Below, in pieces: positions 6,427 to 11,919 of a stretch of DNA of 62,280 bases. The position numbers and the translations under genes are program-made. Below the pieces are notes generated by a model that worked only from the letters and a program-made list of their open reading frames with translations, was not told the DNA's origin and made no database searches. Origin of the DNA: Eubacterium sp. (GTDB taxonomy: Bacteria > Bacillota > Clostridia > Lachnospirales > Lachnospiraceae); the NCBI GenBank assembly GCA_024692605.1, contig JAILMQ010000154.1:1-62280 (forward strand), in the 5' to 3' direction. Position 1 is the first letter of the stretch, and every line of letters begins with the position of its first letter.

Positions 6427-7683
6427 TTATATTAATTCCGCAAGGTCAGGGAAGATTTCCAGACTTCGTTTCAATATGCCATTCATATATGCAATGGCTG
6501 TTCCGTAATTCGTTATTGGTACATTTTGCACACCGGCTCTTTCATATCTGGACTTAGCTTCTGTAGGAGTAAGCATACATGCGCCGCAGTGTATTATCAG
6601 CTTGTAATCAGAAAGATCTTCCGGGAATTCGGTTCCGGAACTAAGGTGTATTTCAGGCTCGCATCCTGTAAAATCCTTGATCCATTTCGGTAGCTTCACA
6701 GAACCTATATCGCCGCATTGACGGTGATGTGTACAGCCCTCACTTATAAGTATCTTGTCACCATTCTGAATAGACTTAATCTTTGAAGCACCAATAACGG
6801 AAGGGTAGAGGTTACCCTTATACCTGGCCATAAGTATTGAAAATGAAGTAAGAGGTATTCGCTTAGGTACGAGCTTACTTACCTTACCAAATGCCTGGGA
6901 ATCTGTTATTACCATTCTTGGATCTTCCTTAAGTGAGAAAAGGGTTTCTTCCAGTTCACTATCCCTGCACATAATAGGTATAGCTCCGTGATCCAGAGCA
7001 TCCCGGATAACCTGCTGCTGGGGGAGTATCAGACGTCCCTTTGGAGCTGCCTTGTCAATGGGTATAACCAGAACTATCTTATCCCCCGGCTGAATAAGGT
7101 CGCCAATCAGTTCATTTTCCTGAGGGCTTTCCTTTATCAGCCTAGCGGCAGTTTCCTTAAGTGTGTCAATATTTGTTCCCGAGGTGGCACTGACATAGAT
7201 TATATTTTCGGTGTCACTGGTTTGCGTTATGTTAACTGACTCTTTATTCGTGTCTGTATTTTTAGCTGATAATGAATCCTTGCCTTGGATTATGTCAACT
7301 TTATTATAAGCGATTATATAAGGTATTTTTTTCTCCTTATATATGTCTATAAGCTCTTTGTCTACAGATGAGATGCCGATGGAAGAGTCTACAACAAGTA
7401 TGGCTATGTCAGTTTTATTCAGCACCTGCTTTGTTTTTTCAACTCTAAGTTCACCCAGGGTTCCCACATCATCGATTCCCGGTGTATCTATTATCACTAC
7501 AGGCCCCAGCGGAAGTAACTCCATGCTTTTGCTCACGGGATCGGTAGTAGTACCTTTTGTATCTGAGACTATTGAAAGCTTTTGACCGGTAAATGCATTT
7601 ACCAGACTTGATTTACCTGCATTCCTGCATCCGAAAAAAGCAATATGTTTTCGTTCGCCGGATGGGATATCATTTAAACTCAT
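6427..7683 (-). CDS. hydF: HydF, [FeFe]-hydrogenase maturation GTPase
   Basis: HydF is the scaffold on which HydE and HydG build the 2Fe subcluster before delivery to the apo-hydrogenase. The 418-residue protein has an N-terminal GTPase domain with P-loop GCRNAGKSS (about residues 19-27), switch DTKGTTTDP, DTPG and NKVD motifs. A linker and dimerisation region follow. The C-terminal cluster-binding domain has CTHH at residues 317-320 and HCGAC at 365-369, matching the HydF [4Fe-4S] ligand pattern. It is the last gene of the minus-strand maturation operon, about 70 bases after hydG. The divergent bases before ATG 7683 contain a purine-rich site (GGAGGCAAC read on the minus strand). Confidence 0.96.
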   Translation of the reverse strand: MSLNDIPSGERKHIAFFGCRNAGKSSLVNAFTGQKLSIVSDTKGTTTDPVSKSMELLPLGPVVIIDTPGIDDVGTLGELRVEKTKQVLNKTDIAILVVDSSIGISSVDKELIDIYKEKKIPYIIAYNKVDIIQGKDSLSAKNTDTNKESVNITQTSDTENIIYVSATSGTNIDTLKETAARLIKESPQENELIGDLIQPGDKIVLVIPIDKAAPKGRLILPQQQVIRDALDHGAIPIMCRDSELEETLFSLKEDPRMVITDSQAFGKVSKLVPKRIPLTSFSILMARYKGNLYPSVIGASKIKSIQNGDKILISEGCTHHRQCGDIGSVKLPKWIKDFTGCEPEIHLSSGTEFPEDLSDYKLIIHCGACMLTPTEAKSRYERAGVQNVPITNYGTAIAYMNGILKRSLEIFPDLAELI

Positions 7684-7754: not shown

Positions 7755-9173
7755 TTAGAATCTGAAATCTCTTTCGCCGCCTTCTTTGATCTTAACAAGT
7801 CTGTCCTTAAGGATTTCCATAACCTTTGGATTAGTTATGTCAACCATATTGTCCTGAATAAGCTTTTCACCAAGCTCTCTTGTTGCAGGTGCAGCATAGT
7901 CAACCAGGTATTCCTCAAGGGTCATAAGTGCATTTGGAAGACAGCAGTTCTGAATCTGCTTTGCCTTACAAAGTGACATGAATCTGTCACCGGTTCTTCC
8001 TTCTCTATAACATGCTGTACAGAAGGATGGAACATAGTCCATCTCCATAAGCCATTTAATTACTTCATCAAGAGATCTTCTGTCGGATACATCGAACTGA
8101 ACTGTATCCTCAGGTCTTTCTTCTTCTGTGTAACCACCAACTGAAGTACGGGAACCTCCGGAAATCTGTGAGATACCCAGATGGAGTACACGTTCTCTTG
8201 TTTTCTGAGACTCACGAGTTGATACGATCATTCCTGTATAAGGAACTGCAATTCTTATACATGCTACCAGCTTGGCAAATGTATCGTCATCGATTGCATT
8301 TGAGAAATCATTTACATCGATATCATCTGCAGGACAGATTCTTGGAACTGAGATTGTGTGAGGTCCTACGCCGTGAACTGCTTCAAGATGTTCTGCATGC
8401 ATAAGAAGTCCTGCAAACTCATAACGGTATTTGTCGAGACCGAAGAGTACTCCAAGTCCTACATCGTCGATTCCACCCTGCATAGCTCTGTCCATAGCCT
8501 CAGTATGATATGCATAATCACTCTTAGGTCCTGCCGGATGAAGCTGCTGGTAGGATTCTTTATGATATGTTTCCTGGAAGAGGATATAAGTTCCGATTCC
8601 GGCATCATGAAGCTTCTTGTAGTTTTCAACTGTTGTAGCGGCGATGTTTACATTTACCCTTCTTATGGCACCGTTTTTATGCTTGATAGAGTAGATGGTA
8701 TCGATACTTTCAAGAATATATTCAATAGGGTTATTGATTGGATCTTCACCGGCCTCCAGAGCGAGACGCTTATGTCCCATATCCTGAAGAGCTATAACCT
8801 CATTACGAATCTGCTCCTGAGTCAGCTTAACTCGTGCGATTGATCTGTTCTTTACATGATAAGGACAGTAGGTGCATGAGTTGATGCAGTAATTTGAAAG
8901 ATAAAGAGGAGCGAAGAGTACGATTCTGTTACCGTAGAATTCCTTCTTGATTTCCTCTGCAAGCTTGTAGATTTCTTCGTTCTTTTCAGGAATCTCACAA
9001 GCAAGAAGTACAGATGCTTCTCTGTGGTCAAGTCCTTTGGTTTCTCTTGCCTTCTTAAGGATTGCATCAATTACTTCTGGGTTGTTTTTGTTTTCATCGG
9101 CATATTTTAAGGATTCCAGTATCTCCTCGTTGTCGATAAATTCTTCTGCTTTTAATGATTTTGGGTTGTACAT
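7755..9173 (-). CDS. hydG: HydG, radical SAM tyrosine lyase making CO and cyanide ligands
   Basis: HydG cleaves tyrosine with SAM and supplies CO and CN- as an Fe synthon for the hydrogenase H-cluster. The radical SAM motif Cx3Cx2C is C96-x3-C100-x2-C103 (CINSCTYC), and the second cluster motif CTACYREGRTGDRFM lies near the C-terminus. I place the start at 9173, not at an in-frame upstream ATG at 9212, because GGAGG lies seven bases before it and this gives 472 residues, the family's usual length. The start is four bases after the hydE stop codon and its ribosome site lies inside hydE, indicating tight coupling. Confidence 0.96.
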   Translation of the reverse strand: MYNPKSLKAEEFIDNEEILESLKYADENKNNPEVIDAILKKARETKGLDHREASVLLACEIPEKNEEIYKLAEEIKKEFYGNRIVLFAPLYLSNYCINSCTYCPYHVKNRSIARVKLTQEQIRNEVIALQDMGHKRLALEAGEDPINNPIEYILESIDTIYSIKHKNGAIRRVNVNIAATTVENYKKLHDAGIGTYILFQETYHKESYQQLHPAGPKSDYAYHTEAMDRAMQGGIDDVGLGVLFGLDKYRYEFAGLLMHAEHLEAVHGVGPHTISVPRICPADDIDVNDFSNAIDDDTFAKLVACIRIAVPYTGMIVSTRESQKTRERVLHLGISQISGGSRTSVGGYTEEERPEDTVQFDVSDRRSLDEVIKWLMEMDYVPSFCTACYREGRTGDRFMSLCKAKQIQNCCLPNALMTLEEYLVDYAAPATRELGEKLIQDNMVDITNPKVMEILKDRLVKIKEGGERDFRF

Positions 9174-9177
9174 TTTA

Positions 9178-10242
9178 TTACCTCCAATTGTAATAATTAT
9201 AATGGTCGCCACGTGAGGTGACGATTTTGTATCCTATTGATTCTATTCTTTTTTCAAGACATACCTTGCACTGGGCGGATTCCTCACCTGTACATATTTT
9301 GTCATCATAAAGTAAATACTTGCCGCGGACCTTTACCGGAGAAAGATTCGGCATGATTACATTTGCCCCTGCCTTAATTCCAAGTTCTCTGCCCTGTGGA
9401 TCAATGGTGCCAAGAGCAGTAGTGGATGGAAGCAGAACCTGAGGAAGACTGAGTCTTATGCCCCCCAGCAGGAAGAGAGTTTCCTCCAATGTGCCATTTG
9501 GTTCATCCTTAAAGGGTGTATCGTGGTGGCTGATAAATGGCCCGATTCCAACCATATGAGGTTCAAGCTCCTTTAAGAAAATCAGGTCCTCTGCAAGATT
9601 CTCCTTTGTCTGAAAAGGAGAGCCTACCATGAAGCCGGCCCCCACCTGGTAACCGATTTCCTTCAGCATATAAAGACATTCCTGCCTTTTCTTTCCGGAA
9701 AGATTAGAGGGATGTAATCTGCTGTAATGATCAAGGTTTGCTGTTTCGTGTCTCAGCAGATATCTGTCAGCCCCGGCATCGAAATACCTTTTATAGCTTT
9801 CATAGCTTTTCTCGCCGATGGAGAGGGTTACGGCACAATCCGGATGATTTTTCTTGATGGACTCCACCAGATGACAGATGTGGTCATCGGTAAAGTAAGG
9901 ATCTTCACCACCCTGAAGAACAAAGGTTCTGAAACCAAGCTTATGACCTTCATCGGTGCAGAAGAGAATTTCCTCATCACTCAGTCTGTATCGCTCGGCA
10001 TTTTTGTTGCCACAGCGGATACCGCAGTAGTAGCAGTCGTTCTTGCAGTAATTTGTAAATTCTATAAGCCCTCTGACATAGACATCTGTTCCATAGTACT
10101 TACGCCTGACTGCATCAGACTTCTGAAAGAGATACTTAGACAATTCATCAGTCCTATGCTCCAGAAGATAGATCCATTCTTCCTTATTAAGTTGGTTTTC
10201 TGTTTCCAGCTTGTCAATAAGCTGCTTTGCTTCAGATTGCAT
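9178..10242 (-). CDS. hydE: HydE, radical SAM enzyme of H-cluster assembly
   Basis: HydE is a radical SAM enzyme of the biotin-synthase/PylB group that processes the HydG product toward the azadithiolate-bridged 2Fe cluster. The 354-residue protein has the cluster motif C66-x3-C70-x2-C73 (CKNDCYYC), a following GGEDP strand typical of this group, and the C-terminal barrel closure. Length fits the family. It lies between the small ACT-like regulator gene and hydG on the minus strand. A direct repeat TTATGTAAAC (10259-10268 and 10293-10302) lies in the short gap upstream; its role is unknown. Confidence 0.95.
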   Translation of the reverse strand: MQSEAKQLIDKLETENQLNKEEWIYLLEHRTDELSKYLFQKSDAVRRKYYGTDVYVRGLIEFTNYCKNDCYYCGIRCGNKNAERYRLSDEEILFCTDEGHKLGFRTFVLQGGEDPYFTDDHICHLVESIKKNHPDCAVTLSIGEKSYESYKRYFDAGADRYLLRHETANLDHYSRLHPSNLSGKKRQECLYMLKEIGYQVGAGFMVGSPFQTKENLAEDLIFLKELEPHMVGIGPFISHHDTPFKDEPNGTLEETLFLLGGIRLSLPQVLLPSTTALGTIDPQGRELGIKAGANVIMPNLSPVKVRGKYLLYDDKICTGEESAQCKVCLEKRIESIGYKIVTSRGDHYNYYNWR

Positions 10243-10310: not shown

Positions 10311-10556
10311 CTATTTCTTGGTGTATATAGTTTTGGAAGTGACACCATCCAGCATCCCTATTTTACCTGAAACCGAGCTTATTACATTTTCAGGAGCATC
10401 AAGACTTACACTGATGATAGAGATGTTCTTTTCTTTATATGGAATTCCCATGCGCCCGATAATATAGCTTCGATATTCATGTAGAATCTGGTTCAGCTTT
10501 TCAACGCTATCTTCATTTTCAACAATAATTCCGATTAGAACGATTCTGTTTTCCAT
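10311..10556 (-). CDS. Iron-only hydrogenase system regulator, TM1266-type ACT-like protein
   Basis: An 81-residue protein with an ACT-like beta-alpha-beta pattern (RIVLIGIIVENEDSVEKLN, then ISIISVSLDAPENVISSVSGKIGML). It closely resembles the small TM1266 family, found almost only beside HydE/HydF/HydG genes and proposed to regulate the hydrogenase system. Being first gene of the hydEGF operon fits that. The ligand, if any, is not known. GGAGG lies just upstream of ATG 10556 in the minus-strand reading. Confidence 0.88.
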   Translation of the reverse strand: MENRIVLIGIIVENEDSVEKLNQILHEYRSYIIGRMGIPYKEKNISIISVSLDAPENVISSVSGKIGMLDGVTSKTIYTKK

Positions 10557-10718
10557 GCCTGCCTCCTATAATAAAAGGGAAAGTAACGGCGTACTTTCCC
10601 TGTGAATTCCGGTTTTGATACGCCTTTCCAGTCGGGACGAACCCTCCTGAGTCAGTACGAGATTATATTATATTGCTATCTCAAATTCTTTTGTTGAATC
10701 AGTTTCTCTGATTTGAGA
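10557..10718 (-). promoter_or_regulatory. Leader RNA of the hyd operon with terminator/antiterminator pairs
   Basis: Read on the minus strand, this leader holds several pairings: a 7-bp stem CTCAAAT/ATTTGAG (10711-10717 with 10680-10686), a small stem 10678-10682 with 10659-10663, a GGG/CCC hairpin near 10634-10644, and last a 9-bp hairpin (10592-10600 with 10577-10585) followed by a U-run, i.e. an intrinsic terminator just before the first ribosome site. The terminator loop and stem edge (10588-10593) is exactly complementary to 10619-10624 (GGCGTA/TACGCC), which would give a competing antiterminator. A candidate -10 (TAGAAT, 10732-10727) puts the start near 10718. I could not match it to a riboswitch class by eye. 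Confidence 0.55.
10569..10600 (-). terminator. Intrinsic terminator inside the hyd leader
   Basis: Nine-bp stem GGGAAAGTA/TACTTTCCC with a six-base loop, followed on the minus strand by UUUUAUU, 12 bases or so before the TM1266 ribosome site. Its place before the first gene points to attenuation, not to termination of an upstream gene. Confidence 0.7.
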
Positions 10719-10847: not shown

Positions 10848-10926
10848 CGACTCCCAAACAGCCAGTCATCGACTCCCTCCCGAAGTAGATTTAATTCTTG
10901 TATAAATCTATTAAATTGGTTATTAT
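10848..10926 (+). promoter_or_regulatory. Promoter region of the DHH gene with direct repeats and palindrome
   Basis: A sigma-A-like promoter is visible: -35 TTGTAT (10898-10903), 17-bp spacer, -10 TATTAT (10921-10926). The -35 overlaps an inverted repeat AGATTTA/TAAATCT (10887-10893, 10903-10909), a possible operator. Upstream, CGACTCCC occurs twice as a direct repeat (10848-10855, 10870-10877; 22-base period). The whole 10557-10989 stretch carries no gene. Confidence 0.45.
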
Positions 10927-10989: not shown

Positions 10990-11919
10990 ATGAAGAGAAG
11001 ACTTGTTACGAGAAGTGATTTTGATGGCCTTGTATGTGCAATGCTGCTTAGAGAGCTTGATATAATTGGGGATATTAAGTTCGTTCATCCTAAGGATGTG
11101 CAGGATGGCAAGGTTGATATTACTGAAAATGATATTACTACAAACCTTCCTTTTGATAAGAGGGTTGGTCTTGCTTTTGATCATCATGAGAGTGAGCTTA
11201 TCAGAAATAAGAAGGAAGATTATGAAGGTAAGTACATAATAGATGGCAACGCTAAGTCAGCTGCAAGAGTGGTTTATGACTATTATGGTGGTGCAGAGAA
11301 ATTCACAAGAGTTTCTGAAGAAATCATGACGGCTGTTGATAAGGGTGACAGTGCTGATTTCATTAAGGATGAAATACTTAATCCTACAGGCTGGGTTCTT
11401 ATGAACTTCCTTATGGATGCTCGTACAGGACTTGGAAGATTCCACGAGTTTAGAATCTCAAATTATGATCTTATGATGGAGTTGATCGATTACTGTGTTG
11501 ATCACACCATTGATCAAGTTCTTGAACTTCCGGATGTTAAGGAGAGAGTGGATCTTTATTTCCGCCAGCAGGAGCTTTTCGTAGAACAACTTAAGAGGAT
11601 TACAAGGATTGAGGATAAGGTTGCAGTTATAGATCTCAGAAATGAAGAGACTATTTATACCGGTAATAGATTTATGGTTTATGCTTTATGGCCTGAAGTT
11701 GAGATTTCAGTTCATGTAGCTTGGGGATTCCGTAAGCAGAATACTGCAGTAATGATTGGTAAATCAATCATAAATAAGAATTCTGATTTTAATATCGGAG
11801 AGCTCTGTCTTTCTTATGGTGGCGGCGGTCATGCAAATGCAGGAACCTGCCAGCTTGATAACGATAAGATAGATGGTGAACTTCCGACTATTATAAATAA
11901 GCTTAATGGTAAAAACTAG
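10990..11919 (+). CDS. DHH family phosphoesterase
   Basis: A 309-residue DHH/DHHA1 phosphoesterase. The N-terminal domain has the metal-binding SDFDG motif (residues about 9-13) and the family DHH motif in FDHHES (about 65). The C-terminal DHHA1 domain has the GGGGHANAGT loop that binds substrate. Relatives hydrolyse short nucleotides (nanoRNA), cyclic dinucleotides or polyphosphate; this subgroup is not resolved by sequence reading. GGAGG precedes ATG 10990. It is the first gene of a run with an amino-acid ABC importer (gap of 15 bases). Confidence 0.88.
   Translation: MKRRLVTRSDFDGLVCAMLLRELDIIGDIKFVHPKDVQDGKVDITENDITTNLPFDKRVGLAFDHHESELIRNKKEDYEGKYIIDGNAKSAARVVYDYYGGAEKFTRVSEEIMTAVDKGDSADFIKDEILNPTGWVLMNFLMDARTGLGRFHEFRISNYDLMMELIDYCVDHTIDQVLELPDVKERVDLYFRQQELFVEQLKRITRIEDKVAVIDLRNEETIYTGNRFMVYALWPEVEISVHVAWGFRKQNTAVMIGKSIINKNSDFNIGELCLSYGGGGHANAGTCQLDNDKIDGELPTIINKLNGKN

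Follow-up and report, generated by a model that had tools for sequence, protein, structure and literature searches.

The window, i.e. the whole stretch of DNA that was analysed (62,280 nucleotides), contains an operon with the gene order TM1266-hydE-hydG-hydF, and all four products exceeded the curated cut-offs of their families (Table 1). The leader RNA of this hyd operon is read from the minus strand from ∼10720 to 10557, and the start codon of TM1266 lies at 10556. At the 3' end of the leader, a terminator-like hairpin with a U-rich tail was found directly ahead of AGGAGG, and the sequence UACGCC (10593-10588) was located within the 5' arm and loop of this terminator. No promoter could be assigned to the leader with confidence. 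On the plus strand (10990-11919), a 309-aa protein with a DHH-like motif (FDHHES) is encoded, which matched nothing in Pfam or NCBIfam at E ≤ 0.001. Between this gene and the divergent hyd operon, CGACTCCC occurs twice, 14 bases apart (10848-10877); this pair of repeats might be an operator.

It had been proposed in the initial annotation that the leader carries multiple stems and a terminator before the first ribosome site, and that GGCGTA and TACGCC in it are exactly complementary. The position of the terminator could be read from the sequence and held. The complementarity held as well; the letters quoted were those of the plus strand, and in the RNA it is GGCGUA (10624-10619) that is complementary to UACGCC. 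The claim of multiple stems held only in part, as the first stem (∼10718-10679) was not common to the homologues inspected, and this long 5' stem was rejected as a part of the sensor. Leader-peptide attenuation was also rejected because the leader has no usable upstream open reading frame: none of more than two codons starting from ATG, GTG or TTG was found in 10722-10557.

The motif in the leader is a hairpin of ∼45 nt, in which a short basal helix, P1, is followed by a helix, P2, that is interrupted by two RA/RA internal loops. Two subtypes were distinguished, which were aligned separately and yielded one common hairpin. Type A, to which the window belongs, has the consensus CGUACUGAC-N3-RA-GGGUUCGUCCC-RA-N3-GAAAGGCG or close forms (window, L001, L008, L033-L037), and the looser type B has CURAC-N3-AAAG...CU-RA-N3-G-RAAGG (L040-L042). 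Across the members, P1 consists of a CU/AG core with a variable extension, and its outermost pair is C-G, U-A or G-C. P2a has four pairs in type B, and a C-G pair, an unpaired base and then three pairs in type A. The sequence of the terminal loop was not conserved outside type A.

Table 1. Coordinates of the genes and RNA features of the hyd operon and its leader in the window
Feature	Position	Strand	Remarks
hydF	6427-7683	-	TIGR03918, 551 bits
hydG	7755-9179	-	TIGR03955, 916 bits
hydE	9178-10242	-	TIGR03956, 589 bits
TM1266-family putative regulator, 81 aa	10311-10556	-	TIGR03959, 112.4 bits (cut-off 60.8)
TM1266 ribosome-binding site AGGAGG	10562-10567	-	read directly from the sequence
Intrinsic terminator hairpin	10576-10601	-	AGGGAAAGUA-CGCCGU-UACUUUCCCU (10601-10576), then UUUAUUAU; U-rich tail 10575-10568
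Putative antiterminator strand GGCGUA	10619-10624	-	exact complement of UACGCC 10588-10593
Putative sensor hairpin P1-P2a-P2b, type A	10621-10659	-	R3 match, E 1.8e-12 over own genome, spanning 10614-10663; window sequence is in the R3 training set
P1 5' strand CGU-A-CU, A bulged	10654-10659	-	pairs with 10621-10625; found by unconstrained folding
P1 3' strand AGGCG	10621-10625	-	overlaps the antiterminator strand
Second RA/RA loop J1	10652-10653 / 10626-10627	-	RA/RA kept in both subtypes (alignments A3, A6)
P2a 5' strand CAG	10647-10649	-	covarying pairs with 10629-10631
P2a 3' strand CUG	10629-10631	-	covarying pairs with 10647-10649
Tandem purine internal loop J2, RA half	10645-10646	-	other half GA at 10632-10633; RA/RA kept in both subtypes
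P2b and terminal loop GGG-UUCGU-CCC	10634-10644	-	helix kept with A-U/G-C exchanges

The hairpin was supported by covariation in both subtypes. In type A, 90% of the cells were paired and six pairs were changed on both sides, with a covariation score of 0.413 versus 0.177 ± 0.025 for shuffled and at most 0.144 for slid controls. In type B, the corresponding values were 96.5%, three pairs, and 0.308 versus 0.178 ± 0.024 (shuffled) and at most 0.169 (slid). It should be noted that sequence relatedness is kept by the slid controls and not by the shuffles. RNAalifold, unprompted, returned the identical core hairpin from both alignments. P2a pairing was absent from L028 and L029 and mostly absent from L059. 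In L028 and L029, CUGACAGGGAAGGC is directly repeated, and ACAGGG-AA-GGC is still able to pair with the terminator arm; these two loci were regarded as a deviant subtype of the motif. The presence of a conserved, structured 5'-leader domain with covariation, which is one criterion for an attenuator- or riboswitch-like element, was thus met.

Homologues were collected by searching 99 related genomes with TIGR03959 and reading the upstream regions. A first covariance model, R1, was run on 295 genomes of the order and gave many new members, and its better matches were mostly upstream of TM1266, hydE or hydG. Because the register of P2a was blurred by a single model for both subtypes, separate models were made for type B (R2) and type A (R3) and applied to 349 genomes from the phylum and 231 from the order. 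These models are blind to proteins. All 38 of the 38 R2 matches were upstream of TM1266, hydE or hydG, as were 17 of 22 R3 matches in the order and 11 of 20 in the phylum; the R3 remainder comprised one ABC operon, one match cut by a contig end, and others that were weak (E of 2e-4 or higher). Over all searches, believable members were carried by at least 23 families of one phylum. TM1266 was the usual first gene behind the motif, and the order TM1266, motif, hydG was observed in several families. Of the hydG-bearing genomes in the phylum sample, most lacked the motif, and many TM1266-bearing genomes had none ahead of TM1266.

Weak matches before other genes (e.g. L144, L151 and L199) were set aside as unproven. 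The R3 match in L144 (∼1500-1550, E 4.5e-4) overlaps the ribosome site of a gene for a 163-aa membrane protein, which resembles an ECF-type S component and had no NCBIfam match; it may be a further regulon member or a chance match. In L115 (1949-7442, genome G338), a type B motif was seen before the anthranilate phosphoribosyltransferase gene trpD and two small genes for lipoprotein-like products; hydG and hydF follow farther downstream.

The 3' strand of the motif was found to have two kinds of neighbour. In terminator-type members, this strand (AAGG and the following bases) was complementary to the 5' arm of the terminator of its own genome. The mean energy of the duplex with the own terminator was −10.8 kcal/mol in 26 clade representatives, versus −7.2 ± 0.47 kcal/mol after permutation of motifs and terminators, and none of 20,000 permutations reached the observed value (p ≤ 5e-5). 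In L033 and L054, the 3' strand paired poorly with the own terminator, implying that a different antiterminator must act there. In hydG-first members (L073, L077, L084, L088, L003, L130, L129, L146), the 3' end of the motif entered the ribosome site, a purine-rich stretch such as AAGGAG or AAAGGA that lies a few bases upstream of the start codon. Both arrangements were present in one operon of G644 (contig C6, 100542-100078), which carries a copy with a terminator before TM1266 and a copy overlapping the ribosome site before hydG (L140, L129). A second criterion, that one strand be common to the sensor helix and to the antiterminator or ribosome site, was met, though L033 and L054 failed simple pairing.

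The folding of growing transcripts of the window leader was predicted. With the RNA extended to 10620, the P1+P2 hairpin formed; at 10588, P1 was displaced by the antiterminator; and at 10575, the form with P1, P2 and the terminator had −25.8 kcal/mol versus −22.2 kcal/mol for the antiterminator form. This predicted order of folds was that expected of an attenuator. The folding energy of the whole leader, taken alone, was unremarkable (z of −1.64). The leader was judged to stand above chance because a conserved, covarying motif precedes the same genes in many families and because the terminator pairing is genome-specific.

The motif was also found, less often than before hyd genes, ahead of ABC importers with NMT1/SsuA-like binding proteins, whose nearest solved relatives are labelled as nitrate, taurine or sulfonate binding. 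An importer or binding protein together with TM1266 stood behind the motif in G348, G282, G310 (where TM1266 was read from its sequence) and G655, and tblastn matches indicated the same arrangement in G230. A second, taurine/sulfonate-like importer followed the motif in G076 and G320. It was also observed that TM1266 shares an operon with an NMT1/SsuA-like ABC importer away from hyd genes (L114, 2019-4705; L118, 2019-4782; L113, 1410-3994; L155; L213), and that the binding protein of the TM1266-linked importer contains [RV]-I/V-G-[GS]-L-K-G-P-T. The co-operonic arrangement suggested that TM1266 or the importer might handle a compound of H-cluster assembly. We regard the link to the importer as the best clue to the ligand, which itself is inferred.

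On this evidence, we lean towards the view that the leader is one of a previously unreported class of cis-regulatory RNAs, most probably riboswitches, and that these RNAs control H-cluster assembly for the [FeFe]-hydrogenase; ligand binding and the control of expression are inferred. From the anatomy, the class would act on either termination or translation, and for both outputs the state with P1 formed would be OFF. When the signal is bound, P1/P2 would be stabilised, the 3' strand of P1 would be unavailable to the antiterminator (or, with the other output, the ribosome site would be masked), and expression would stop. Without the signal, the antiterminator would form and the operon would be read. 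The signal is probably a small molecule connected with H-cluster assembly: a product or intermediate, or else a compound imported by the co-regulated ABC system. This is the least certain step of the scheme. Neither the ligand nor the direction of control has been shown; both are inferred. It is possible that in L053 the 3' strand is itself a terminator arm, which would reverse the OFF logic. A point against the riboswitch reading is that P1 is short and variable outside the CU/AG core, so that the helix to be stabilised by the signal would be a weak one.

The alternative that survives best, unlikely but not excluded, is a protein-responsive leader, in which TM1266 or another protein would bind the hairpin and repress its own operon and, in trans, other hyd operons and the importer. 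This is supported by the usual place of TM1266 behind the motif and by its presence in 24 of 25 motif-hit genomes checked (the motif hits of G440 and G578 in this set are doubtful, and G143 is a motif-free genome). Proteins commonly target hairpins with tandem purine loops, and TM1266 is a relative of PDB 2NZC. However, TM1266 is common anyway: it passed the cut-off in 90 of 200 sampled genomes versus 101 of 200 for HydG, most genomes with HydG have it, and its presence with the motif therefore does not decide. Further points against protein control are that no TM1266 was found in the 94%-complete motif genome G617, that many TM1266 genomes lack the motif ahead of this gene, and that a regulon with importer genes and the existence of two output types are typical features of metabolite sensing. 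Control by a small molecule or an ion is considered clearly more probable than control by a protein.

Sensing of an ion or the redox state, e.g. of Fe2+, in place of an organic metabolite, appeared very unlikely. In its favour, the target is an iron cofactor, and tandem sheared purine pairs are frequent binding sites for metal ions; PMC10043782 also cites a paper whose title states that NiCo RNAs respond to Fe(II). But if P1 formed is OFF, iron would shut off the assembly of an iron cofactor, which is the less natural sign, and the importers under the same control belong to the NMT1/SsuA type and are not known iron importers. A divergent member of a known riboswitch class (SAM, c-di-GMP, THF, Moco, NiCo etc.) was considered even less probable. 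The leader works like one, and SAM would be a sensible ligand because HydE and HydG are radical-SAM enzymes. Against this, cmscan of the leader with the 4227 families of Rfam 15 gave no match even at E ≤ 10, and that of 14 homologue-bearing loci gave no riboswitch at E ≤ 2; a hairpin with two RA/RA loops is not known to be the architecture of any of these classes. Chance, i.e. an ordinary terminator with accidental complementarity and no regulation, could be all but excluded, since the unexceptional folding energy of the single leader (z of −1.64) is opposed by the covariation, the gene association and the permutation test.

These results bear on the remaining claims of the initial annotation. 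Its metabolite- or protein-responsive leader with a terminator and antiterminator was supported, with the choice between a ligand of whatever identity and TM1266 undecided. Its failure to fit a known riboswitch class was also supported, as the Rfam match it had named as a refutation was not found. The other refutation named, a lack of covariation for the competing helices, was countered by strong covariation in the sensor hairpin, and the specificity of the antiterminator for the terminator of its own genome, given by the permutation test, supports the competing helices.

The whole window gave no Rfam match at the gathering threshold. Such a motif was not described in the open-access literature searched, which did not cover the supplements of the large motif surveys; term look-ups in Narunsky 2024, Brewer 2021, Stav 2019, Fremin and Bhatt 2021, and a 2022 riboswitch review did not find it, and a 2017 paper on 224 RNAs was outside the search. 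An unnamed earlier listing is therefore possible. With this reservation, the motif is likely a new class of riboswitch-like leader, a kind of element already known.

Returning to the riboswitch reading, a bolder form of it is possible, in which the RNA, as a new class of riboswitch, would sense a compound that is specific to H-cluster biosynthesis, and TM1266 would be a second, protein sensor of the same compound. The ligand might then be, for example, an intermediate or by-product of HydG or HydE, or a precursor taken up by the co-regulated ABC system. If true, this type of ligand would be one recognised by no known riboswitch. Very little is known about how bacteria decide to build the [FeFe]-hydrogenase cofactor, and TM1266 is labelled a "putative regulator" with no function shown. 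A compact RNA with defined partners in many families offers a direct experimental handle. The motif also links hydrogenase maturation with an uncharacterised family of ABC importers, and it is of relevance to hydrogen production by anaerobes.

The hyd motif resembles protein-responsive attenuators, such as ribosomal-protein leaders, in being a small hairpin before the regulator's own gene with a terminator and antiterminator, but differs in that its regulon reaches other hyd and ABC operons and in that no binding has been shown. Like the Moco, NiCo and SAM riboswitches, it would regulate cofactor assembly in anaerobes; unlike them, it is a single hairpin with two RA/RA loops, and it gave no cmscan match. 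It differs from known riboswitches in general in having no shown ligand and in matching no Rfam 15 family. With riboswitches that have terminator or ribosome-site-masking platforms it nevertheless shares the 5'-leader position, a compact conserved domain, one strand that pairs alternatively with a terminator arm or lies near a ribosome site, and a regulon that unites importer and biosynthesis genes.
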